A DNA stretch of 62,447 bases from a virus. Positions 30,973-52,994 of this stretch are shown here, piece by piece. The notes beneath the pieces were generated by a model. It was not told where the DNA came from. It worked only from the letters and a program-made list of their open reading frames with translations, and ran no database searches. Every line of letters starts with the position of its first letter. Position 1 is the stretch's first letter. Both the position numbers and the translations under genes were made by a program. The stretch covers positions 1 through 62,447 of IMG/VR virus record IMGVR_UViG_3300009285_010995; one strand, given 5' to 3'.

Positions 30973-32052
30973 ATGAACGTTGACGAAATTCAACATTGCA
31001 CCATTTTTCTTTGTAGAGCTGGTTCTCACGCTTATGGTACCAATACGCCAGAGAGTGACATAGATATTAGAGGAGTCTGTATTCCTACAAATTTGTCTTA
31101 TTATGTAGGGTTTGGCTTAAAACACTTTGAACAAAAAACTGACGGGTGGCCTGAAAATGAAGACAAAACTGTTTATGATTTAAGAAAAGCCATTAAATTG
31201 ATGGCAGATAATAATCCTAATATGCTGGAATTGTTATACACAAGGCCAGAAGATACACTTCATTCAACTATTTTTTGGCACAATATTGTAGACCATAGAA
31301 AGAAATTCCTTTCAAAAAAGGTGCGCTATCGCTATAGCGGTTATGCTTACGCTCAGTTGAAGCGAATCGAAACGCATCGTAATTATTTATTGAATCCTCC
31401 AAAGAAACAACCTCTTAGAAAAGATTTTGGATTACAAGAAAAAAGGATGTTAACTAAACATCAAGAAGAATCTTTTCTTTGGTTAATTTCTAGATTGCTC
31501 GAAGACAGCATTGAAGAAATGAAACTAACAGATGAGGTAAGAAAAGTTCTTCGAGAAGTAAATTATATTGGACTGCTGCAATCTAAAATACCAGATGACG
31601 TAGAACAGATCATTAAGCGAATGACAAACGCACCTGATGAATGGGTGCAGCTATTATTAAAAGAAAAAGCATATGCAAACGCCAAACAAAATTGGATTTC
31701 ATATGAAAATTGGGGAAAAACTAGAAATCCAAAACGACATGAACTAGAAAAAAAATACGGCTTTGACGCAAAACACGCTCTTCATCTTGTACGCCTTCTG
31801 AGACAGGGCATTGAAATTTTGAAAACAGAAACACTTGAAGTATATCGTCAAGACAGAGAAGAGCTTCTTGCAATTCGCAATGGCGCATGGACTTTCGAAG
31901 AGTTGAAAGACTATTTCAATAGATGCGAAAAAGAACTTCATGATTTGTATGCGACAACATCTCTTCCTAATACACCAGATTTGAAGTTCATTGATAAACT
32001 GTGTATAGAGACAATACAAGATTATCTTGGATTTAAGAACACATGGCTCTAA
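30973..32052 (+). CDS. Predicted nucleotidyltransferase, PolB superfamily (RlaP-like)
   Basis: A 359-residue protein opening with the nucleotidyltransferase core GSHAYGTNTPESDIDIRGV, where D-x-D supplies the metal ligands, followed by YDLRKAIKLM and NNPNMLELLY. This is the pattern of the family of predicted nucleotidyltransferases that includes RlaP and is common in large phages. The rest is helical and basic. The substrate is unknown; RNA ends or nucleotides are possible. It overlaps the DnaE N-fragment by 10 bp. Confidence 0.82.
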   Translation: MNVDEIQHCTIFLCRAGSHAYGTNTPESDIDIRGVCIPTNLSYYVGFGLKHFEQKTDGWPENEDKTVYDLRKAIKLMADNNPNMLELLYTRPEDTLHSTIFWHNIVDHRKKFLSKKVRYRYSGYAYAQLKRIETHRNYLLNPPKKQPLRKDFGLQEKRMLTKHQEESFLWLISRLLEDSIEEMKLTDEVRKVLREVNYIGLLQSKIPDDVEQIIKRMTNAPDEWVQLLLKEKAYANAKQNWISYENWGKTRNPKRHELEKKYGFDAKHALHLVRLLRQGIEILKTETLEVYRQDREELLAIRNGAWTFEELKDYFNRCEKELHDLYATTSLPNTPDLKFIDKLCIETIQDYLGFKNTWL

Positions 32053-32912
32053 AATTTTTCAATCTTCACGGACATACGTCATATAGCCTTTACGACGCCA
32101 TAGGAGGGGTGCAGGAGCATGCAAATTGGATGTTGCAGAATGCAGGAGAGGATTCTGGAGGGTTCGCAATCACTGACCACGGGCATTTAAATGCTGCTGG
32201 CGAAATCGCGGCCATTCAAAAGCGTGCCAAAGAAAAAGGACAGCCACTAAAACTTATCTATGGCTGTGAATTTTATTTCGTTCCTTCGCTAGAGAAATGG
32301 CGACTTGACAAAGAACAAAGCGATATTTTAAAAAAAGAACAGAAGGAAAATAAACTAAAAAAAATAGAACAAGACGAAGAAGGTGAAAGTGATTTAGTTA
32401 TTGAAAACGAACAAGAATCTAAATCAAATTATTATTATAATCCTATCAATAGAAGAAATCACTTAGTTGTTTGTGCAATAAATCAAACAGGACTGAAAAA
32501 CTTATTTAGATTAGTATCTCGATCGTATCGAGAAGGATTTTATAAAAAACCAAGAATTGACTTTGCGTTGTTAGAAAAGTTCAATGAAGGACTTTTGGCA
32601 AGCACTGCCTGTTTGCACAAGGATAATATTTTAATTACGTCTTGTGGGATGTTGACTATTGAAAATGTTGTAAAAAAAATAAACAATGATGAAAACATAT
32701 ATGTTTTGGCATACGACATAAATAAAGAAGTGTTAAAGTTTGAAAAAGTTCTGTGGGGCGGTATTACTAAAACGCAAGTTAAGCTAATAAAAATAACATT
32801 AGAAAATGGAAAAGAGGTAAAGCTCACTCCAGATCATAAAGTATTTACCAATTATGGTTATATAGAAGCTAAACAACTCACCAAAGAACATAAAATATTA
32901 GCATTAAAGTAA
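32043..32912 (+). CDS. dnaE: DnaE (DNA polymerase III alpha) N-terminal fragment fused to an N-intein
   Basis: Residues 1-189 are the PHP domain of DnaE: LHGHTSYSLYDA, ITDHGHLNAAGE, YGCEFYF, NHLVVCAINQTGLKNLF and EGLLASTA. From Cys 190 the protein turns into an N-intein (CLHKDNILITSCGMLTIENV, block A; LTPDHKVF, block B with T-x2-H) that ends at a real stop codon. PHP metal ligands appear complete when the next fragment is included, so the exonuclease-like site may be active. The piece can only become DnaE by protein trans-splicing with the fragment at 33880. Confidence 0.93.
   Translation: MALKFFNLHGHTSYSLYDAIGGVQEHANWMLQNAGEDSGGFAITDHGHLNAAGEIAAIQKRAKEKGQPLKLIYGCEFYFVPSLEKWRLDKEQSDILKKEQKENKLKKIEQDEEGESDLVIENEQESKSNYYYNPINRRNHLVVCAINQTGLKNLFRLVSRSYREGFYKKPRIDFALLEKFNEGLLASTACLHKDNILITSCGMLTIENVVKKINNDENIYVLAYDINKEVLKFEKVLWGGITKTQVKLIKITLENGKEVKLTPDHKVFTNYGYIEAKQLTKEHKILALK
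32610..32909 (+). other. N-terminal half of split intein 1 (100 aa)
   Basis: It begins at Cys (TGT 32610-32612) after ASTA and shows block A (C-L-x-x-D-N-I-L-I) and block B (TPDH). It stops at TAA 32910-32912 about where mini-inteins are cut between blocks B and F. The partner is at 33880-34011. Together they give 144 residues, a normal mini-intein size. Confidence 0.9.
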
Positions 32913-32963: not shown

Positions 32964-33917
32964 ATGCCTACGGATAAACAAATAATGCATAGTGTTGGAA
33001 AATTTATATCGATACAAAAAATTAAAAGAATGCTTTTAGAAGAAAAGCATTGCCCTTTGATGATTTATGACTTACTGAAGAGAGATCATGAAATATTTTT
33101 CCACGAATGTGCAATTAACAAAAAAAGATTTAGGAAATTTATTATTGATAATTTCGAATGGAACAAAGAATCATATTTAAAACAACAGAATTTTTTTAAA
33201 TTACAATACAAATTTCCCAAAGAAACAACTGAAGATACATTAAAAGAAAAACAAAAATTAATGTGTCAACTAGGACAAAAGAAAGTTATTGAAATTAGGA
33301 AAAGCAATCCAGATGGATTTTCTCCTCATCAAAAATTACAATTTTGGTTAAACAAAGGATTAGCTCATGATGATGCATGTGTTGCTTTAAAAAAATTTAA
33401 ACAAGAAAATTCACCATTTTCTGTTGAATTTTATCTTAAAAGAGGGTATTCACATGAACAATCACTTGAAAAAACTAAGGAGTTGCATAGTTTAGGAGCT
33501 TCATATGCTTTAAAAAGAACGCAAAACCCACAAACCGAACAAATTATAGACAAAATTTTAAAAGATTTTAGCAATATAGAAATTGAATATGTTCGTCAAT
33601 TTAGTATAACATTAAATAACAATGAACGTTTATTTAGAAAGACAAGATACATATACGACTTCTGTATCTTTGCGTATAGTTTAGTTATTGAATGTCATGG
33701 AACTTATTGGCATTGCGATCCGCGTTTTTTTAAAGCATCAGATAATGTAAAGTTTCCTGGAAATCGTACAATATTGGCAGAAGAAGTTTGGGAGCGTGAT
33801 GACCATCGAAAAGCTGTTGCGCATTCAAGAGGCTATAAGTATTTAGTTTTTTGGGAACACGATTTACAGGACATAACTTATGTTGAAAAAAAACTCTTAC
33901 CAGTTTTTCTCAATTGA
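32964..33917 (+). CDS. Vsr-like (EDxHD-type) homing endonuclease in split-intein break 1
   Basis: A 317-residue basic protein. The C-terminal nuclease domain has YIYDFCIFAYSLVIECHGTY then WHCDP, and VWERDDHRKAVAHSRGYKYL then VFWEHDL, matching the very-short-patch-repair-like fold of the endonuclease family reported in fractured phage genes. The N-terminal and middle parts have repeats such as FWLNKGLAHDDA and FYLKRGYSHEQS, seen in phage endonucleases. It is not in frame with either intein half; its 3' end overlaps the C-intein start by 38 bp. It presumably drives spread of the broken allele into unbroken dnaE. Confidence 0.8.
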   Translation: MPTDKQIMHSVGKFISIQKIKRMLLEEKHCPLMIYDLLKRDHEIFFHECAINKKRFRKFIIDNFEWNKESYLKQQNFFKLQYKFPKETTEDTLKEKQKLMCQLGQKKVIEIRKSNPDGFSPHQKLQFWLNKGLAHDDACVALKKFKQENSPFSVEFYLKRGYSHEQSLEKTKELHSLGASYALKRTQNPQTEQIIDKILKDFSNIEIEYVRQFSITLNNNERLFRKTRYIYDFCIFAYSLVIECHGTYWHCDPRFFKASDNVKFPGNRTILAEEVWERDDHRKAVAHSRGYKYLVFWEHDLQDITYVEKKLLPVFLN

Positions 33918-34011
33918 TTCAATCGAAGAAGTTGAAGGATTGCACGATGTTTATGATATTGAAGTAGCAAATGCACATAATTTTTTTGCAAACGATATTT
34001 TAGTTCATAAT
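33880..34011 (+). other. C-terminal half of split intein 1 (44 aa)
   Basis: It starts at its own ATG inside the 3' end of the endonuclease gene and ends LVHN, with the usual His-Asn pair before extein Cys+1 (TGC 34012-34014). Block F is DVYDIEV...HNFFANDI. Confidence 0.9.
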
Positions 34012-36312
34012 TGCATTGCAGGAATACCAGCATGGTGTTCGCATCATCCTGATGTTGAAAATAATCAAGATAAAATTTTTAAACTATATGGTAAAGAATT
34101 ATTGCCATTAATGCAGTTGTTTGGCAAAGATAGATTCTTTTTGGAATTACAATTTAACAAATTGCCTCAACAAACTAAAGTTAATTTAGATTTAATAGAA
34201 TATTCCAAGAGAACTGGATATGATTTAATTGTAACATGCGATGCACATTATCCATCGCCAAATCTTTGGCGTGATAGAGAATTATATAGGATGCTTGGCT
34301 TTCAAATGCAGAAGATGAAAGGTGTCGATACTTCTGTGATTGAAAAACAGGAAGCAGATTTAGAATGTCACTTATATTTAAAGAATGGGGATCAACTTTT
34401 TCAACACTACAAAGACACATTTGCCAATGATTTCAAAGATGAAAACATTATACGACAAGCTATTGAACGAACATTTCATGTTGCTTACGGTTTGTGCGAC
34501 AGTGTTTTTCCAGATTCTACCTACAAACTTCCACGAACTGTTACTGCTGCTGACAAAGTTAAAACTTCTTTTGATAAGCTGAAAAATTTGACCATTCAAG
34601 GGTTAAAGCAAAAAGGCAAAATTTCTAAAGAATATTTAGATAGAGCAGCTTTCGAACTTCAGGTTATCAAAAGAATTGGTGTAGAAGAATATTTCTTAAC
34701 TGATTTGGAGATAATGGATTCACTAAAAAAATATATGTTGACAGGTCCAGCTAGAGGTTCTGCAGGCGGAAGTTTAATATGCTATGCTATTGGTATTACT
34801 TTAATTGATCCATTGAAAAATAACCTATTGTTTGAACGATTTATGTCTACGTCTCGTAAAGAAATGCCTGACATAGACAATGATGTAGCCGACAAAGAAC
34901 AGTCCTTGGATATACTTAAATCACATTTTGGACAAAACAATGTTTTAGCAATTTCCAATTATAATAGATTACAACTAAAGTCCTTAGTTAAAGATATTTC
35001 TAAATTATATGACGTTCCTTTTGATGAAGTAAATGCAGTTACTAAACAAATAGAGTTAGAAGCCAGAGATAAAATTTTAGAAGAAATTGGACATGACCAA
35101 AAATTATATGAATTAACTTTTGAAAGAGCACAACAATATTCACCATCATTTCAAAAGTTCATAGAAAAATACCCAAAAGTAGGATTACATATAACCAATT
35201 TGTATCGAGAAATTAGAGCGACTTCGAAACATGCTGGAGGAATTTTAATAGTTCCAGATGCAGAAAGTTGTTTGCCAATAGTGCGCATAAGAGGTACTGA
35301 TCAATCACCTATTTCAGAAGGTCTTACAGCCCAATATTTGCAAAATTTCGGATTAATTAAATTTGATGTTCTTGGCTTAACTACTTTAAAAATTATTTCA
35401 AAATGCATTGAACAAATTTTGATTGACACCAAAGATTTAGTTACTCCTACAACAGAACAAATATGGGAATTTTATAATAACAACATCCATCCAGATGTGA
35501 TTGACGATAAAGATGCTAAGGTTTTTGAAAATGTGTATCATAATGGACGGTGGCCTTCGATATTTCAATTTACAGAAAGAGGCGTACAGTCGTTTTGCCA
35601 GAAAGCCAAACCTAGAAGTGTTAAGGATATTGCAGCGATAACAAGTTTGTGGCGTCCAGGTCCTTTGGGCGGCAAAGCTGATCAACGTTATTTGTCATTT
35701 AAGCCTTCAGACATCAAAAAAGAACATCCTATTATTCAAGAAGTTCTTGGAGATACACGTGGGCTGTTGGTTTACCAAGAGCAATTTATGTTGTTGGCTA
35801 ACAAATTAGCTGGATTTTCTCTTGAAGAATGCAATGTTCTTCGCAAAAAATTAGTAAAACCTGCTACTTCGCTAGCAGAAGAAATGAAGAAAGAACGTAT
35901 TGAATTAGGAGAAAAATTTATAAATGGGTGTATTGCTAGCGGATTAACTAAAGAAAGAGCAGAAAAATTGTGGTACGAAGAGATTATGGGCTTTATTAGC
36001 TATGGTTTCTGTCATTGTTTGCACTATAAAACTTTTGTTGAAACTGAAAATATGAAAAAATTTATATGCGATGTTGAAATAGGAGATTTGATTAAATCAA
36101 ATAATGGTTATGTTAGAGTACTCAACAAATATAAAAATGGCAAAAAGAAACTTTTTAAAATAAAAACCGAATCAGGAAAGACATTAATTTGTACGATGCA
36201 GCACAAAATAGAAACTTCGACAGGAATGAAAACCCTTAAAGAAATTATTGAAAATAATTTATTAATTAATGTAGACGATAATGAATATGAAATGCCAAAT
36301 ATGCGGAATTGA
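33880..36312 (+). CDS. dnaE: DnaE middle fragment flanked by a C-intein (front) and a different N-intein (end)
   Basis: Residues 1-44 are C-intein 1 (block F VYDIEVANAHNFFANDILVHN, given here only by its ends VYDIEV and ILVHN). The extein then begins at Cys 45 (CIAGIPAW). The extein carries the last PHP ligands (TCDAHYPSP), the Pol III fingers and palm (TGPARGSAGGSLICY, MPDIDNDVADKEQ with catalytic Asp, LIKFDVLGLTTLKII with the third Asp, WRPGPLG). It ends FISYGFCH, followed by N-intein 2 and a stop. This polypeptide must be spliced at both ends, so the two inteins have to be mutually selective. Confidence 0.93.
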   Translation: MLKKNSYQFFSIDSIEEVEGLHDVYDIEVANAHNFFANDILVHNCIAGIPAWCSHHPDVENNQDKIFKLYGKELLPLMQLFGKDRFFLELQFNKLPQQTKVNLDLIEYSKRTGYDLIVTCDAHYPSPNLWRDRELYRMLGFQMQKMKGVDTSVIEKQEADLECHLYLKNGDQLFQHYKDTFANDFKDENIIRQAIERTFHVAYGLCDSVFPDSTYKLPRTVTAADKVKTSFDKLKNLTIQGLKQKGKISKEYLDRAAFELQVIKRIGVEEYFLTDLEIMDSLKKYMLTGPARGSAGGSLICYAIGITLIDPLKNNLLFERFMSTSRKEMPDIDNDVADKEQSLDILKSHFGQNNVLAISNYNRLQLKSLVKDISKLYDVPFDEVNAVTKQIELEARDKILEEIGHDQKLYELTFERAQQYSPSFQKFIEKYPKVGLHITNLYREIRATSKHAGGILIVPDAESCLPIVRIRGTDQSPISEGLTAQYLQNFGLIKFDVLGLTTLKIISKCIEQILIDTKDLVTPTTEQIWEFYNNNIHPDVIDDKDAKVFENVYHNGRWPSIFQFTERGVQSFCQKAKPRSVKDIAAITSLWRPGPLGGKADQRYLSFKPSDIKKEHPIIQEVLGDTRGLLVYQEQFMLLANKLAGFSLEECNVLRKKLVKPATSLAEEMKKERIELGEKFINGCIASGLTKERAEKLWYEEIMGFISYGFCHCLHYKTFVETENMKKFICDVEIGDLIKSNNGYVRVLNKYKNGKKKLFKIKTESGKTLICTMQHKIETSTGMKTLKEIIENNLLINVDDNEYEMPNMRN
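36016..36309 (+). other. N-terminal half of split intein 2 (98 aa)
   Basis: It begins at Cys (TGT 36016-36018) after extein FISYGFCH with block A CLHYKTFVETENMKKF and then DVEIGDLI; block B is TMQH. It stops at 36310-36312. The partner is at 37156-37269; together they are 136 residues. Confidence 0.9.
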
Positions 36313-40231: not shown

Positions 40232-41647
40232 GTGTTTCAATTCAGTTCGCTTAATTTTCTTTTTGATGCATTCAAAAACAATTCGTTTGAACTTTTTTAT
40301 GTTGGTGGTTTTGTAAGAGATAAAACTCAACATGAAATGTCGTCTGACCCTAGAATTAGTGATATTACAAACTTACAGCCATTCAATCCTAATGATATAG
40401 ATTTGGCTACAAATGCGCACCCTAATCAAATTTCAAAAATTCTTTCATCTTTAAAGCTTCCTGTAATTCCAATAGGAATTAAATTTGGAACTATAGGTAG
40501 CATTATTGATGATAGAAAAATTGAAATAACAACTTATAGATGTAAAGAGTCTTATCAAAAAGGAAACAGAAAGCCTGATGTAGTGTTTGGAACAATATTA
40601 AAAGAAGATTTATCAAGAAGAGATTTTACCATGAATGCCATGGCAATGGATCAAAATGGTACATTGATAGATCCTTGGTATGGTTATGCTGATCTGATAA
40701 TGGGCTTGTTAATAACGCCTATTGCCCCGTCTATTTCTTTTTCTGATGATCCATTGCGCATGATGCGCGCATTTAGATTTGTTTCTCAGGATCTAGGAGC
40801 TATAGAATATACAGCAGGGGAAGCTATTTCAAAACTAAAAGATTCTATTTTATCTGTTTCGCCTGAACGTATTGTTGATGAAATGAACAAAATATTGATA
40901 GGCCGAAGTGCTTCTAAAGCTTTAGAACAAATGGGTCAGAGTGGTTTGCTTGGCGTGATTTTCCCAGAATTACAAAAAGTAATTGATTTCAAACAAAATC
41001 AAGGAATTTTTCACAGCAAAAAAGTATGGCCTCATACATTAGATGTCGTAAAGAATTCTCCTGCTAAATTAGAATTACGATGGGCAGCTTTATTTCATGA
41101 TGTTGCTAAGCCAGAAACATATAGCGAAAATGAATCAGGAGTGCATTTTTATTGTCATGAAATACGTGGTTCGCATATATGGCGCAGCATAGCGGATAGA
41201 TTGAAAATGAGCCATATGTTTAGGGATCATGTTGAATTGCTTATAAAAGAGCATTTAAGTCCTGGTCTTCTAACTTACCAAGGAGTTAATCATTGCAGCA
41301 AAACTGCATTACGTCGTTTTATTTATCGAGCTGAAGATAAACTAGATGATATTTTTAAATTATCTTTAGCCGATATTACTTCCCACAAACCCGAAGTTGT
41401 GTTAAAAAAAACACAAGATTGTCTGGCTTTGAAAGAAAGGGTATCTGAACTTGCAAAACAAGAAGATATTCCCAGAATTAAATTACCAAAAGGAACTGGT
41501 TTATTGATTGCAAAACATTATAATTTAGTACCTGGTCCTTATCTTGGTACTATTATGGATTATTTGAAGCAAGAATTAATTGACGGAACAATCACAGAAA
41601 ACAGCAATTTTGTTCAGGAAGCAGGAAAACATGTCTGGAAGTCTTAA
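40232..41647 (+). CDS. cca: CCA-adding tRNA nucleotidyltransferase with HD domain
   Basis: A 471-residue class II enzyme. The nucleotidyltransferase head has YVGGFVRD, the catalytic NDIDLAT (D-x-D), IEITTYR, and the template motif LSRRDFTMNAMAM. The neck follows (DDPLRMMRAFRF), and the C-terminal half has an HD phosphohydrolase-like domain (WAALFHDVAKPETYS, HLSPGLL). The start is GTG at 40232 after GAGG. It repairs or completes the CCA end of tRNAs. The phage's own tRNA genes already encode CCA, so repair of damaged tRNA ends is a plausible role. Confidence 0.92.
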   Translation: MFQFSSLNFLFDAFKNNSFELFYVGGFVRDKTQHEMSSDPRISDITNLQPFNPNDIDLATNAHPNQISKILSSLKLPVIPIGIKFGTIGSIIDDRKIEITTYRCKESYQKGNRKPDVVFGTILKEDLSRRDFTMNAMAMDQNGTLIDPWYGYADLIMGLLITPIAPSISFSDDPLRMMRAFRFVSQDLGAIEYTAGEAISKLKDSILSVSPERIVDEMNKILIGRSASKALEQMGQSGLLGVIFPELQKVIDFKQNQGIFHSKKVWPHTLDVVKNSPAKLELRWAALFHDVAKPETYSENESGVHFYCHEIRGSHIWRSIADRLKMSHMFRDHVELLIKEHLSPGLLTYQGVNHCSKTALRRFIYRAEDKLDDIFKLSLADITSHKPEVVLKKTQDCLALKERVSELAKQEDIPRIKLPKGTGLLIAKHYNLVPGPYLGTIMDYLKQELIDGTITENSNFVQEAGKHVWKS

Positions 41648-46520: not shown

Positions 46521-48800
46521 ATGAACTACAAGAATGTATTGTATATTTTATTTTTCTTAAGTTGTTTATTAATTCCTAGGTCATCATATCCTCAAGATTG
46601 TGATTTGTGGAATGTGCCTTTGCGCTGCAATCTTGCATTAGAATTGCAGGCAAAAGAGGCAGCCTGGCTGGACACCAAAGCTAACAATAGCATGGTAGAA
46701 AACTCTTCCTTATTTTTAGCAAGCGAAGAGTTGTGTTTAAATGAATTTAAGACATCATTCAGTGACGTAAATATTCACAGTCACTATCGAAGTACAAAAG
46801 ACTATTCAAATTATACTTTTCAAGGAAAATTCAAAGTTTCAGACAGCAACACTGGAACAGGAATTACTGTTTATTCGCAGTATTTAGACGGAAAAGACAA
46901 ATACATAAGACTTAGACGTTACTATGGAAAAGGTGATTTACATATTTCAAATCATTTTAACGGAAGTGTTTGCGATAACAAGACGACAAATGTATTTCCG
47001 TTAGTAAACAATACATACAAATTTAAATTAAAAGCTACTACAAATGCAAATGACGTAAGGATTCAGGCCAAAGTTTGGCAAGAAGTATCAATTGAACCTG
47101 GGTGGCAAATCGATTGTTTGGAAACATCTGCAGATAGACCAACTAAAGGAACTGTAGGTTTGTGGTCTATGAGCAATGGAAGTAAACATTGGTATAATTT
47201 ACAACTAGTATCTAACGAACAAACAAGTAACGGAATAGAATCTCCAGTAAATATGGAACCCATTCCGCAACCTGTACCAGAGCCAGAACCTGTACCAGAA
47301 CCTGTACCAGAACCTGTACCAGAACCTGTACCAGAGCCTGTGCCAGAGCCAACAATGCCTCCTGTAAACACTCTGCCAACAGCAGAAGCACCAATAGCAG
47401 TAGATTGCTGGCATCAGGGTGCAGGAAAAGACTTTCAAGTAGGAGAAAACAAGGAATACAAATATTTAAATGATGTTCCTTGGGACAGCTTAAAAGCTGG
47501 AGACACGGTTCGTATTTTCTGGAAATCTGAACCTTATCGAGAAACAATATTAATTTCTGGGACGGGCACAAAAGACCAACCAATTAGAGTTTGTGGTGTT
47601 CCAGGATTTTATGGTGAATTGCCTATATTAGACGGGGCTAATGCTATTTCGACATCCAAGTCAAATTGGACAGGAGACTATCAGCAAGATGGCGGTGTAA
47701 TTTTAATTGATTTTAATTATACACAAAAAAACAATTCTTATTACACTTATGAGCCAAAAAATATTGTCATCGAAGGACTTGAAATTCGAGGGGCAAGATA
47801 TGGAAATTATCATACTTTAACAAATAAAGTACGAAAAGAATGGAGAGAAGGTGCTTCTGGAATAGTTGTCTATCGTGGAGACAATATTGTTATTAGGGGA
47901 AACATTGTTCACGACAATGAATTTGGATTGTTTACTAAATCAACTGGAACTGGTGCTTTTCTTATTGAAAATATATTGATTGAGGGAAATTATTTTTATG
48001 GAAATGGTCGATTAAACAATTATGGAATTCATAATGTTTATGTTCAAACTGCTTATCCAGTTTATCAATTTAATAGGTTTGGCAAAACAAGAGATGGCTC
48101 TTCAGGATTGCCATTGAAAGACAGATCTGTATTGCCAATTGTTCGATACAACTGGTTTGACTGGTATGCTTTAGATTTGGTTGGACCAGAAGAATTTTAT
48201 GATGATGTAAAAAATTGGCCAGATTATCATATTGCTTATGTTTATGGGAATGTTTTTAACATTAAGAATGCAAATGAATTTGTTGGAATAATTCATTTTG
48301 GTGACGAACATGGACATGAAAAGAAAGGTCCATTATATATCTACAACAATACCATTTATGCGCAAACAATATCAACAGCTTGGAATAAAGTTTTATTTAG
48401 AATTGATCGTTCGGATGCTTTAGTGCATATTAACAACAACATTTTGCATGTCACTGGCGGTCGCTCGGATGCACCAAAAGTTGCCTTGCTTGCAAAGGGC
48501 GGCAATGCTATATTAGGAACAAACTGGATTACAACCGGTTGGATTCAGAGCGCTGGTACCTGGACAGGTACTGTAACAGGTACTGCAAATATGATCACAG
48601 GAACCCATCCAGGTTTTGATCTTAACAATAATTTAAAATTAATGTCTGGTTCTCCTGCAATTGATAAGTCCACTACTTTGCCATCATCTATTTCTAACAG
48701 TTTAAAAGTTACTTTAGAATATGTTCCTCACTTTAAAGCAAAGTCAAAATCTGTTAGTGGTACGTCTATAGATTTAGGCGCATTTGAATATCTGCCTTAA
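46521..48800 (+). CDS. Secreted two-domain protein: lectin-like N-domain, PEPV linker, right-handed beta-helix
   Basis: A 759-residue protein with a Sec signal peptide (VLYILFFLSCLLIP, then PQDC). Residues about 60-235 form a jelly-roll-like domain of the kind seen in glycan-binding or glucanase folds (YTFQGKFKVSD, YIRLRRYYGKGD, TVGLWSMSNGSKHWYNLQL). A Pro-Glu-Pro-Val linker follows (about 250-277). Residues 295-759 are a parallel beta-helix of the pectate-lyase type (NIVIEGLEIRGARYG, IVVYRGDNIVIRGNIVHDNE, NILIEGNYFYGNGR, LYIYNNTIYA) ending in SPAIDKSTTLP and IDLGAFEYLP. It probably binds or cuts polysaccharide, exported by the infected cell rather than built into the particle. Confidence 0.75.
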   Translation: MNYKNVLYILFFLSCLLIPRSSYPQDCDLWNVPLRCNLALELQAKEAAWLDTKANNSMVENSSLFLASEELCLNEFKTSFSDVNIHSHYRSTKDYSNYTFQGKFKVSDSNTGTGITVYSQYLDGKDKYIRLRRYYGKGDLHISNHFNGSVCDNKTTNVFPLVNNTYKFKLKATTNANDVRIQAKVWQEVSIEPGWQIDCLETSADRPTKGTVGLWSMSNGSKHWYNLQLVSNEQTSNGIESPVNMEPIPQPVPEPEPVPEPVPEPVPEPVPEPVPEPTMPPVNTLPTAEAPIAVDCWHQGAGKDFQVGENKEYKYLNDVPWDSLKAGDTVRIFWKSEPYRETILISGTGTKDQPIRVCGVPGFYGELPILDGANAISTSKSNWTGDYQQDGGVILIDFNYTQKNNSYYTYEPKNIVIEGLEIRGARYGNYHTLTNKVRKEWREGASGIVVYRGDNIVIRGNIVHDNEFGLFTKSTGTGAFLIENILIEGNYFYGNGRLNNYGIHNVYVQTAYPVYQFNRFGKTRDGSSGLPLKDRSVLPIVRYNWFDWYALDLVGPEEFYDDVKNWPDYHIAYVYGNVFNIKNANEFVGIIHFGDEHGHEKKGPLYIYNNTIYAQTISTAWNKVLFRIDRSDALVHINNNILHVTGGRSDAPKVALLAKGGNAILGTNWITTGWIQSAGTWTGTVTGTANMITGTHPGFDLNNNLKLMSGSPAIDKSTTLPSSISNSLKVTLEYVPHFKAKSKSVSGTSIDLGAFEYLP
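47270..47352 (+). repeat. 12-bp tandem repeat encoding a Pro-Glu-Pro-Val linker
   Basis: CCTGTACCAGAA-like units repeat several times, giving PVPEPEPVPEPVPEPVPEP. Such rigid linkers span distance between domains, as in TonB-like proteins. The slippage-prone repeat may vary in length between isolates. Confidence 0.95.
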
Positions 48801-49512: not shown

Positions 49513-49761
49513 ATGACAAAAGAAACACAAAACGAAGTGTTTGTATTGCACTATCAGGGAAAAATCATTACACCTTGGATTTGGAAAGAATTTTCCAAGA
49601 ATTACGGACATCACGGAGGGCTTGTTGGTTGGCGTGCACCGAAATATTTGTATATGAAATTAGGACATGCTAAATGTGCTATAAAACACTTACCTAAAAT
49701 TATTCAAAATCAAATTGAAATAGTGAAATATATTCCTGTAGCTAGTGCATTGAATGAATAG
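49513..49761 (+). CDS. Small protein, copy 1 of a tandem pair
   Basis: An 82-residue protein (MTKETQNEVFVLHYQGKIIT, APKYLYMKLGHAKCAIKHLP, QNQIEIVKYIP). The next gene at 49771 is a paralog with the same opening, the PKY-x-Y centre and the QIEIV-[KR]-Y ending. It lies 8 bp after the repeat-protein gene. Function unknown. Confidence 0.75.
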   Translation: MTKETQNEVFVLHYQGKIITPWIWKEFSKNYGHHGGLVGWRAPKYLYMKLGHAKCAIKHLPKIIQNQIEIVKYIPVASALNE

Positions 49762-49770
49762 GATGATGAC

Positions 49771-50013
49771 ATGACAAAGAAAACACAAAGTGAAGTATTT
49801 GTATTACACTATCAACAGAAAATGTTAACTTCAGATATCGTGGAAGAAAATATTAAATACAGGCTAAAACATTCAAGATTTTGGAAGCGCCCAAAATATA
49901 TGTACAGTGAAAAAAGACATGCTAAAAATGCAATTATGCACTTTCCAAAAATACTTCAAGATCAAATTGAAATAGTGCGATATGTTCCTGAATATGATTC
50001 AGGAATATGGTGA
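49771..50013 (+). CDS. Small protein, copy 2 of a tandem pair
   Basis: An 80-residue paralog of the 49513 protein (MTKKTQSEVFVLHYQQKMLT, RPKYMYSEKRHAKNAIMHFP, QDQIEIVRYVP). The separation by 9 bp and shared ends show a tandem duplication that has since diverged in the middle. Function unknown. Confidence 0.75.
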   Translation: MTKKTQSEVFVLHYQQKMLTSDIVEENIKYRLKHSRFWKRPKYMYSEKRHAKNAIMHFPKILQDQIEIVRYVPEYDSGIW

Positions 50014-51737: not shown

Positions 51738-52226
51738 GTGTGTTATATGTACGACAAACCAATAAAACTAACAATTATTAATGGCTATCAAATATTTTTT
51801 GACCCTCAACATACTTTGGCAAATAAATCAGGTATTGTCTATTGCCATCGTCACGTTGTTTCTTTAGCTTTGAAACGCTGGATTTCATCTGATGAACATG
51901 TTCATCACAAAGATGGTAATCGAAACAATAATGACATATCTAACTTATTTATTGCCACAAAACAAGAACACGCCAAATTGCACAGCAATGCAATCAATCT
52001 TTTATTTATACAATGTCAAGTCTGTGGAAAAATGGTTCATTCAAGCAGTCACAAAATTAGAGTTAGAAAATTTTGTTCACAGAAATGTTGTCAGTTTTCA
52101 CGACGAAAAATCATAAATCGTCCATCCAAAGAAACATTGTTAGAAGAGTTAAAAACAATGAATTATGTTGCTCTTGGCAAGAAATACAACGTAAGCGATA
52201 ATGCAATTAGAAAGTGGTTAAAATAA
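51738..52226 (+). CDS. HNH homing endonuclease in the tRNA cluster
   Basis: A 162-residue protein with the phage HNH pattern: GIVYCHRHVVSLALKRWISS, DEHVHHKDGNRNNNDISNLF, IATKQEHAKLH. A treble-clef-like zinc site follows (CQVCGKMVH ... KFCSQKCC), and a C-terminal helix-turn-helix (LLEELKTMNYVALGKKYNVS) for DNA binding. The ATG at 51747 is as likely as the GTG 51738. It lies 5 bp after the tRNA-Lys-like gene and 14 bp before the tRNA-like RNA, so it may target a tRNA site. Confidence 0.85.
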   Translation: MCYMYDKPIKLTIINGYQIFFDPQHTLANKSGIVYCHRHVVSLALKRWISSDEHVHHKDGNRNNNDISNLFIATKQEHAKLHSNAINLLFIQCQVCGKMVHSSSHKIRVRKFCSQKCCQFSRRKIINRPSKETLLEELKTMNYVALGKKYNVSDNAIRKWLK

Positions 52227-52240
52227 ACATGAATATCTCC

Positions 52241-52448
52241 GCTCTTGTATCTCAATTGGCAGAGCACACGTAAAACGGAACGTGCGGTGAAAACCATAGA
52301 CGATTTAATTTTGAAATTTTGCATGGTTGCAGTGCACCGAATGGCTCAGACAGGGTCTGTAGGGAAGCGCGTTTCCAAAAAATTTCAATCCTTAGAGTAA
52401 TGTCTAAGTTTTTGTCTAATGTGGGTTCGAATCCCACCAAGAGCGCCA
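52241..52448 (+). ncRNA. tRNA-like RNA with a structured insert of about 130 nt
   Basis: The ends are those of a tRNA: acceptor GCTCTTG/CAAGAGC, a D-arm (TCTC AATTGGCA GAGC), T-arm GTGGG TTCGAAT CCCAC, discriminator G and CCA. An anticodon-like arm CACGT/ACGTG (52267-52284) has an 8-base loop AAAACGGA without the usual T33. Then, in place of a variable loop, come a GGT-GAAA-ACC hairpin (52286-52295), a closing helix ATAGAC/GTCTAAT (52296-52301 with 52414-52420), a 10-bp helix TTGAAATTTT/AAAATTTCAA (52311-52320 with 52379-52388) enclosing a CAGAC/GTCTG hairpin, and a CTTAGA/TCTAAG hairpin (52391-52408). It is too short for a normal group I intron. Function unknown. Confidence 0.6.
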
Positions 52449-52454
52449 ATTTTC

Positions 52455-52994
52455 ATGAATATTTTTGTTTTAGATATTGAACCAAAATTAGCTGCACAAT
52501 ATCATTGCAATCGGCATGTCGTAAAAATGATATTAGAAACAACACAAATATTGTCAACTTCTGTTTATTATTATTTTAAAAAACCAATAAATGATTTTTG
52601 TGCAGAAACAGGTTTATACAGACCGACACACATAAATCATCCTTGCAGTATTTGGTGCCGTCGTTCTAAAGAAAATTTTCTATGGCTGCATCAACTTGGC
52701 ATGCATTTAATTGACGAATACTTTTTTCGTTATGACAAAATTCATGCCTGCTTGCCAAAGTTAAATCAAACAAAATCATATATTCATTTGTTCCCAAATG
52801 ATTCTTTAACTGATTTTGCTTTAGCCATGCCAGAAAAGTATAAATGTGGAGATGCAGTTAAGTCATATAGAAATTATTACAAACATGATAAAATACATTT
52901 GCTGCAATACAAAAAACGCGAACATCCATTTTGGCTAGAGGACTTAGAAAATGGCAGAAAAACATACATTAATTGTCAACAAAGCAAGATGTAG
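52455..52994 (+). CDS. Conserved phage protein with N-x-H-V-V-K-M and F-A-L-A-M-P motifs
   Basis: A 179-residue protein (MNIFVLDIEPKLAAQYHCNR, HVVKMILETTQILSTSVYYY, THINHPCSIWCRRSKENFLW, LTDFALAMPEKYK, VKSYRNYYKHDKI). This combination is frequent among large-phage proteins, usually left unnamed; I do not know a proven function. Conserved His, Cys and Lys suggest an enzyme. The ATG 52455 starts 6 bp after the tRNA-like RNA; a longer frame reads back into that RNA and is not used. Confidence 0.75.
   Translation: MNIFVLDIEPKLAAQYHCNRHVVKMILETTQILSTSVYYYFKKPINDFCAETGLYRPTHINHPCSIWCRRSKENFLWLHQLGMHLIDEYFFRYDKIHACLPKLNQTKSYIHLFPNDSLTDFALAMPEKYKCGDAVKSYRNYYKHDKIHLLQYKKREHPFWLEDLENGRKTYINCQQSKM

Follow-up and report, generated by a model that had tools for sequence, protein, structure and literature searches.

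Gene content of the contig and location of the RNA

The DNA analyzed in this study (the window) is the complete 62,447-nt stretch of the IMG/VR virus record IMGVR_UViG_3300009285_010995. Judging from its tail sheath, it is a 62-kb fragment of a myovirus, on which three tRNAs were found. An additional RNA with a tRNA-like body and a structured insert is situated between an HNH endonuclease gene and a phage gene of the phrog_624 group (Table 1). The endonuclease is probably a neighboring mobile gene that is separate from the RNA, while the CCA-adding tRNA nucleotidyltransferase encoded by the phage could service the 3′ end of the RNA.

Some other genes of the contig deserve mention. Two frames (32043-32912 and 33880-36312) match positions 41-181 and 198-791, respectively, of phrog_405, a DNA polymerase family, and enclose a frame of 317 aa (32964-33917). 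A split gene or an intron- or intein-like insertion is possible at this site. Just before the tRNA genes, two similar small proteins (MTKETQNEVFVLHYQ.. and MTKKTQSEVFVLHYQ..) are encoded in tandem (49513-49761 and 49771-50013), likely as the result of a duplication. A 759-aa protein (46521-48800) that combines a (PEPV)n repeat with a beta-helix region is possibly a tail or surface protein.

Table 1. Positions of the RNA, its structural parts and selected genes in the window
Feature	Position	Strand	Evidence or remark
tRNA nucleotidyltransferase (CCA-adding) of the phage	40232-41647	+	phrog_2244, E 9e-58
HNH endonuclease (HNH_3)	51738-52226	+	Pfam E 4.8e-10; ends 14 nt upstream of the RNA
Whole RNA: tRNA-like body, structured variable-arm insert, encoded CCA	52241-52448	+	Sequence; 32 relatives
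Acceptor stem, 5′ strand GCTCTTG	52241-52247	+	7/7 pairs with CAAGAGC (52438-52444)
D-arm: CTC/GAG stem, loop AATTGGCA with GG	52250-52265	+	
Anticodon-like hairpin CACGT[AAAACGGA]ACGTG	52267-52284	+	Strands 52267-52271/52280-52284; stem covariation, 32 sequences
Loop segment AAACG, 5′ side of predicted pseudoknot	52273-52277	+	Pairs with 52370-52374; compensated variants in relatives
Variable-arm stem, 5′ strand TTGAAATTTT	52311-52320	+	Pairs with 52379-52388; counterpart in relatives covaries
Conserved core GGTTGCAGTGCACCGAATGGC..GGGTCTGTAGGGAAGCGCGTTTCC	52325-52376	+	blastn identity, invariant columns, R1 score
Core hairpin a, GG(U)UGC/GCACC	52325-52338	+	
Core hairpin b, GGCUC/GGGUC, tandem G-U pairs	52343-52357	+	Distal part covaries in larger relatives
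Near-invariant strand TGTAGGGAAGCGCGTTT	52358-52374	+	Includes pseudoknot 3′ side CGTTT (52370-52374)
Variable-arm stem, 3′ strand AAAATTTCAA	52379-52388	+	Partner of 52311-52320
Extra hairpin CTTAGA/TCTAAG	52391-52408	+	Strands 52391-52396/52403-52408; window copy only, absent from relatives
T-arm GTGGG[TTCGAAT]CCCAC	52421-52437	+	Perfect
Acceptor 3′ strand, discriminator, CCA	52438-52448	+	Discriminator G 52445, CCA 52446-52448
Phage gene, phrog_624, weak Pyr_excise	52455-52994	+	Putative start codon 6 nt after CCA

Structure of the window copy

The initial annotation had delimited an RNA with complete tRNA ends, and its bounds proved exact to the base (52241-52445 plus CCA). Both helices that it had listed, the 10-bp helix formed by the two variable-arm strands and CTTAGA/TCTAAG, are present in the sequence, and the anticodon-like arm with a loop lacking T33 was confirmed (8-nt loop AAAACGGA). 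The window copy showed no GNRA hairpin of the kind described along with them; in relatives, hairpin b contains GCGA or GAGA. The proposed structured domain in place of the variable loop was upheld as well and its exact site could be specified, after position 43 and before position 48. The insert comprises approximately 136 nt between the anticodon-like hairpin and the T-arm. Within the D-arm of this copy, T10 and C25 form a mismatch. Since the element was not called as a tRNA by ARAGORN and Rfam (RF00005), and since folding of the single sequence gave only a modest gain over shuffled sequences (z -1.79), the case for this RNA rests on its relatives.

Relatives of the RNA

By blastn against phages, a core of 56 nt was found to be 86-88% identical in Streptomyces phages. 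It is unannotated in nearly all of the Streptomyces phage records listed and overlaps a hypothetical ORF in one, and full tRNA ends surround it in the flanks of the matched phages. Further members came from pattern scanning of viral contigs, from a single scan of genomes and from a core model termed R1. Only three of the 23 matches of the genome pattern scan (L049, L064 and L066) were real members. R1 gave 34-80 bits in phage carriers, 66.5 bits for the window copy and 27.8 bits for the second, divergent copy of contig G009; it disclosed further myxobacterial copies and missed one copy (G394). The two diverged copies of G009 (126542-126599 and 131956-132002) are located 5.4 kb apart in a tRNA array. 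A search of plasmids gave no match, and the last viral scan did not reveal further carrying records.

Altogether, 32 distinct relatives of 152-267 nt were recovered from phages, huge phages (contigs of 424 and 433 kb) and myxobacterial genomes, all of which possess tRNA ends and a conserved core of about 55 nt between the anticodon-like arm and the T-arm. The window copy and those of Streptomyces-type phages are of a short form, while larger forms come from the myxobacterial genomes, the huge phages and the other phages. Among 15 diverse relatives, 28 columns of the core are invariant. Except for a T-arm fragment, the window copy did not match any family of Rfam 15 (E ≤ 10), in agreement with the statement of the initial annotation that no named class has this layout, nor was there a family match for the core of two tested relatives. 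The RNA family, which exists in many phages and a few soil bacteria, is apparently undescribed.

Covariation and predicted fold

RNAalifold, applied to ten short-form sequences, recovered the acceptor, D, anticodon-like, variable-arm and T stems as well as hairpins a and b, with double changes that kept pairing in 20 of 40 pairs. In all 32 sequences the acceptor and T stems are 100% paired while the identity of the pairs changes, though these counts favor structure because acceptor positions were partly chosen by pairing. As a control, native partners were compared with partners swapped between sequences. The native pairs were superior for the variable-arm stem across the family (z 8.1), for the anticodon-like stem in 32 sequences (z 4.7) and for the pseudoknot AAAACG/CGUUUU (z 3.9). 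Compensated variants of the latter are AAAAGCG/CGCUUUU, AACUG/CGGUU and several G-U variants. The initial annotation had made its proposal dependent on helix conservation in relatives; the stems are indeed conserved and covary in the 32 relatives.

The Levitt pair 15-48 was identified in 28 of 32 sequences, as G-C in seven and as A-U in 21 (permutation p about 1e-5), and its covariation argues for the tRNA L-fold itself. A T-loop of the type TTCRA or similar exists in every sequence. Thus, the tertiary contacts of an L-fold (15-48, the GG of the D-loop, the T-loop) were found, whereas a 7-nt anticodon loop with U33 was not. Together, the fold and the Levitt pair indicate that the insert occupies the variable loop. 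Predicted pairing of the loop sequence AAAACG with CGUUUU in the core would close a pseudoknot; a loop engaged in this way should not read codons. The predicted molecule therefore has the L-fold of a tRNA, a variable arm that is giant and structured, and an anticodon loop that is locked and non-decoding.

Comparison with known RNAs

YrlA (RF02553), a Y RNA of bacteria that mimics tRNA and is the closest analogue in function, resembles the family in its tRNA-like T and D arms and in the location of its genes beside Ro60 and in rtcBA operons, a link that was seen in relatives of our RNA and not on the window contig. However, YrlA is circularly permuted (T-arm, closed acceptor, D-arm) and its RNA ends pair together, whereas the family RNA shows the normal order, free acceptor ends, a CCA that is sometimes encoded, and a core in the variable loop. 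RF02553 did not match over the window element (E ≤ 10) or elsewhere in the window record. Matches in L018 and L131 were partial or at other positions; as the model also weakly matched unrelated control genomes, short partial matches were ignored. In some phages, YrlA-like matches lie near the family RNA. Membership in YrlA was rejected since neither the model nor the arm order fits. A CGAAUG string common to both RNAs was dropped because it varies between relatives.

With tmRNA (RF00023), the family has tRNA ends, a pseudoknot and a large insert in common. Yet the insert of tmRNA follows the D-loop, not the anticodon-like arm, and the family RNA has full D and anticodon-like arms, no tag frame and no model match. 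The tRNAs with long variable arms (Leu, Ser, Tyr, Sec) likewise show a Levitt pair (15-48) and an additional variable-region helix, but the insert of the family measures roughly 85-200 nt, includes a conserved core and belongs to a molecule not called as tRNA, whose loop of at least 8 nt lacks U33 and is predicted to pair with the core. Group I introns in tRNA genes are also structured RNAs inserted within a tRNA sequence; here, the insert lies outside the anticodon loop, has no Rfam intron match and would not yield a plausible tRNA on splicing. GOLLD and other large RNAs of phage tRNA arrays are structured RNAs in the same kind of location, but the family RNA is much smaller, has tRNA ends and gave no Rfam match. 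As YrlA is incompatible in order and model, and as tmRNA, long-arm tRNAs and group I introns fail in their defining features, we regard the RNA as a new family, which by analogy probably works like a Y RNA, outside YrlA.

Association with Ro60, Rtc genes and tRNA arrays

Ro60 is encoded in 14 of the 25 RNA-carrying phage records, of which 13 were detected by the TROVE Pfam domain and one (G394) by a protein search. By comparison, phage Ro was matched in 344 of 50,697 phage records. In 13 records measured, Ro and the RNA share a strand and are separated by 1-14 kb. This proximity was significant against random placement (combined p 2e-5 over eight lineages), though the statistic is inflated by the location of both genes in tRNA-rich regions. 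The RNA was found directly upstream of Ro in G004, G006 and G398, with the likely start about 45-60 nt downstream, while in G001 the likely Ro start follows the RNA after 323 nt. In G398, a YrlA-like RNA (50.4 bits, cut-off 69), the family RNA and Ro are arranged in tandem.

A similar association exists in Myxococcota, where Ro was present in all six RNA-carrying genomes, compared with 8 of the 140 without the RNA (p 2.5e-7, or 2.6e-6 when two close relatives are treated as one). In one myxobacterium (L066), the RNA including CCA ends 26 nt before rtcB, which is followed by rtcA; rtcR is oriented divergently, and a gene for RlaP lies beyond rtcR. Y RNA genes are located upstream of rtcBA in the Salmonella operon rsr-yrlBA-rtcBA (PMC7790460), a place to which the position of the L066 RNA corresponds. 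Many copies reside within or near phage tRNA arrays, some carriers encode an RNA ligase and a polynucleotide kinase, and several encode RtcB.

By Pfam and protein searches, neither Ro60 nor RtcB was detected on the 62-kb window contig, nor were they found in the larger carriers G005 (153 kb), G008 (149 kb) and G009 (136 kb). The chromosomal copies examined, except for the one Rtc locus, are not adjacent to Ro or Rtc genes; that of L080 adjoins astB. Conversely, in eight other phages with Ro, the 20 kb on either side of this gene lack the RNA, which is thus not obligatory for Ro. Given these carriers without Ro and Ro phages without the RNA, we infer the partnership with Ro from the neighborhood of the genes.

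Interpretation

With moderate confidence, we propose that the family comprises stable non-coding, tRNA-ended RNAs with a giant variable arm and a locked anticodon-like loop, which act as partners of the Ro60/RtcB machinery. Their ends would be made by the tRNA pathway, i.e., by RNase P, 3′ processing and CCA addition. The tRNA body may pose as a tRNA or recruit factors acting on tRNA, the variable-arm core would dock a protein, and the RNA as a whole may serve the RNA-repair and RNA-quality machinery (Ro60 and RtcB/RtcA). Such a partner would be useful to phages with tRNA arrays that face anticodon nucleases of the host. YrlA tethers Ro60 to a tRNA-like function, and the proposed partnership resembles this action, although the RNA is built differently.

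It is unlikely, though worth considering, that the RNA is a decoy for anticodon nucleases. Most copies reside in or near phage tRNA arrays, some carriers possess the ligase and kinase or RtcB, and one copy belongs to an rtcR-controlled locus, RtcR being responsive to tRNA fragments (PMC7790460). On the other hand, the anticodon-like loop is nearly fixed as AAAACG and predicted to be paired with the core, while the targets of such nucleases vary; a decoy would not require a strictly conserved core of 55 nt; and YrlA was not cut in Salmonella (PMC7790460).

We are more doubtful about a new class of functional RNA that would sense damage or act as a ribozyme in the RNA-repair systems of phages and bacteria, its full tRNA body being joined at the variable loop to a catalytic or switching core with a grip on the anticodon loop of the same molecule. 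Somewhat less probable still is a core with catalytic or ligand-binding activity (self-cleavage, ligation or switching), for which the tRNA body provides the scaffold or substrate; the proximity to Ro and Rtc genes would then be incidental. The exceptional sequence conservation of the unpaired core strands (UGUAGGGAAGCG), together with the pseudoknot, is reminiscent of small ribozymes and riboswitches, but a ribozyme or riboswitch of Rfam was not matched and the association with Ro and Rtc is statistically strong.

It is very improbable that a small intron or mobile element interrupts a tRNA and is later removed. Although the same core resides on differing tRNA bodies, with ordinary or Leu/Ser-like D-arms, and an HNH gene precedes the window RNA, the anticodon arm is already complete where the insert begins, removal of the insert would leave an AAAACG-type loop of at least 8 nt without U33 in almost every relative, and the variable stem and the pseudoknot bind it to the body. 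Moreover, no intron family of Rfam matched, and a second anticodon 3′ strand near the T-arm was absent from the copies inspected; a 4-bp match to the anticodon strand near the T-arm of L018 is lost in its relative in L034. A group I intron, already doubted in the initial annotation, was rejected since a catalytic-core family match and an anticodon strand in a 3′ exon were lacking in these copies. Finally, we give almost no credence to a tmRNA-like or coding RNA making use of the 25-codon frame (52323-52400) noted initially, as the T-arm fragment matched tmRNA at only 11.5 bits, far under the cut-off of 47 bits, the core varies in length by single bases and contains stops in relatives, which breaks the frame and argues against a conserved peptide, the D and anticodon-like arms are complete, and a separate tmRNA is annotated in Streptomyces phage Comrade.

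The RNA would add a family whose architecture is unmatched in Rfam, an intact tRNA fold with a variable loop grown into a large conserved domain by which the anticodon loop is locked. The novelty would lie in the RNA architecture and the family, while the RNA probably serves a machinery that is already known. With Ro60, RtcB/RtcA/RtcR and tRNA arrays as its context, the long-open role of bacterial and phage Ro60 and Y-type RNAs would become testable in laboratory phage-host pairs.

Further RNAs were noticed in the course of the analysis. A myxobacterial MAG (L127) holds YrlA, with a Ro60 gene on the same contig, and large tRNA arrays were seen in L127 and L135-L138. Rhodococcus phage Trina (L141, 19640-19848) contains a 209-nt element with the annotation pseudo tRNA-OTHER, located 113 nt upstream of Ro. 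It does not belong to the tRNA-ended RNA family and is possibly another RNA of the Y type.
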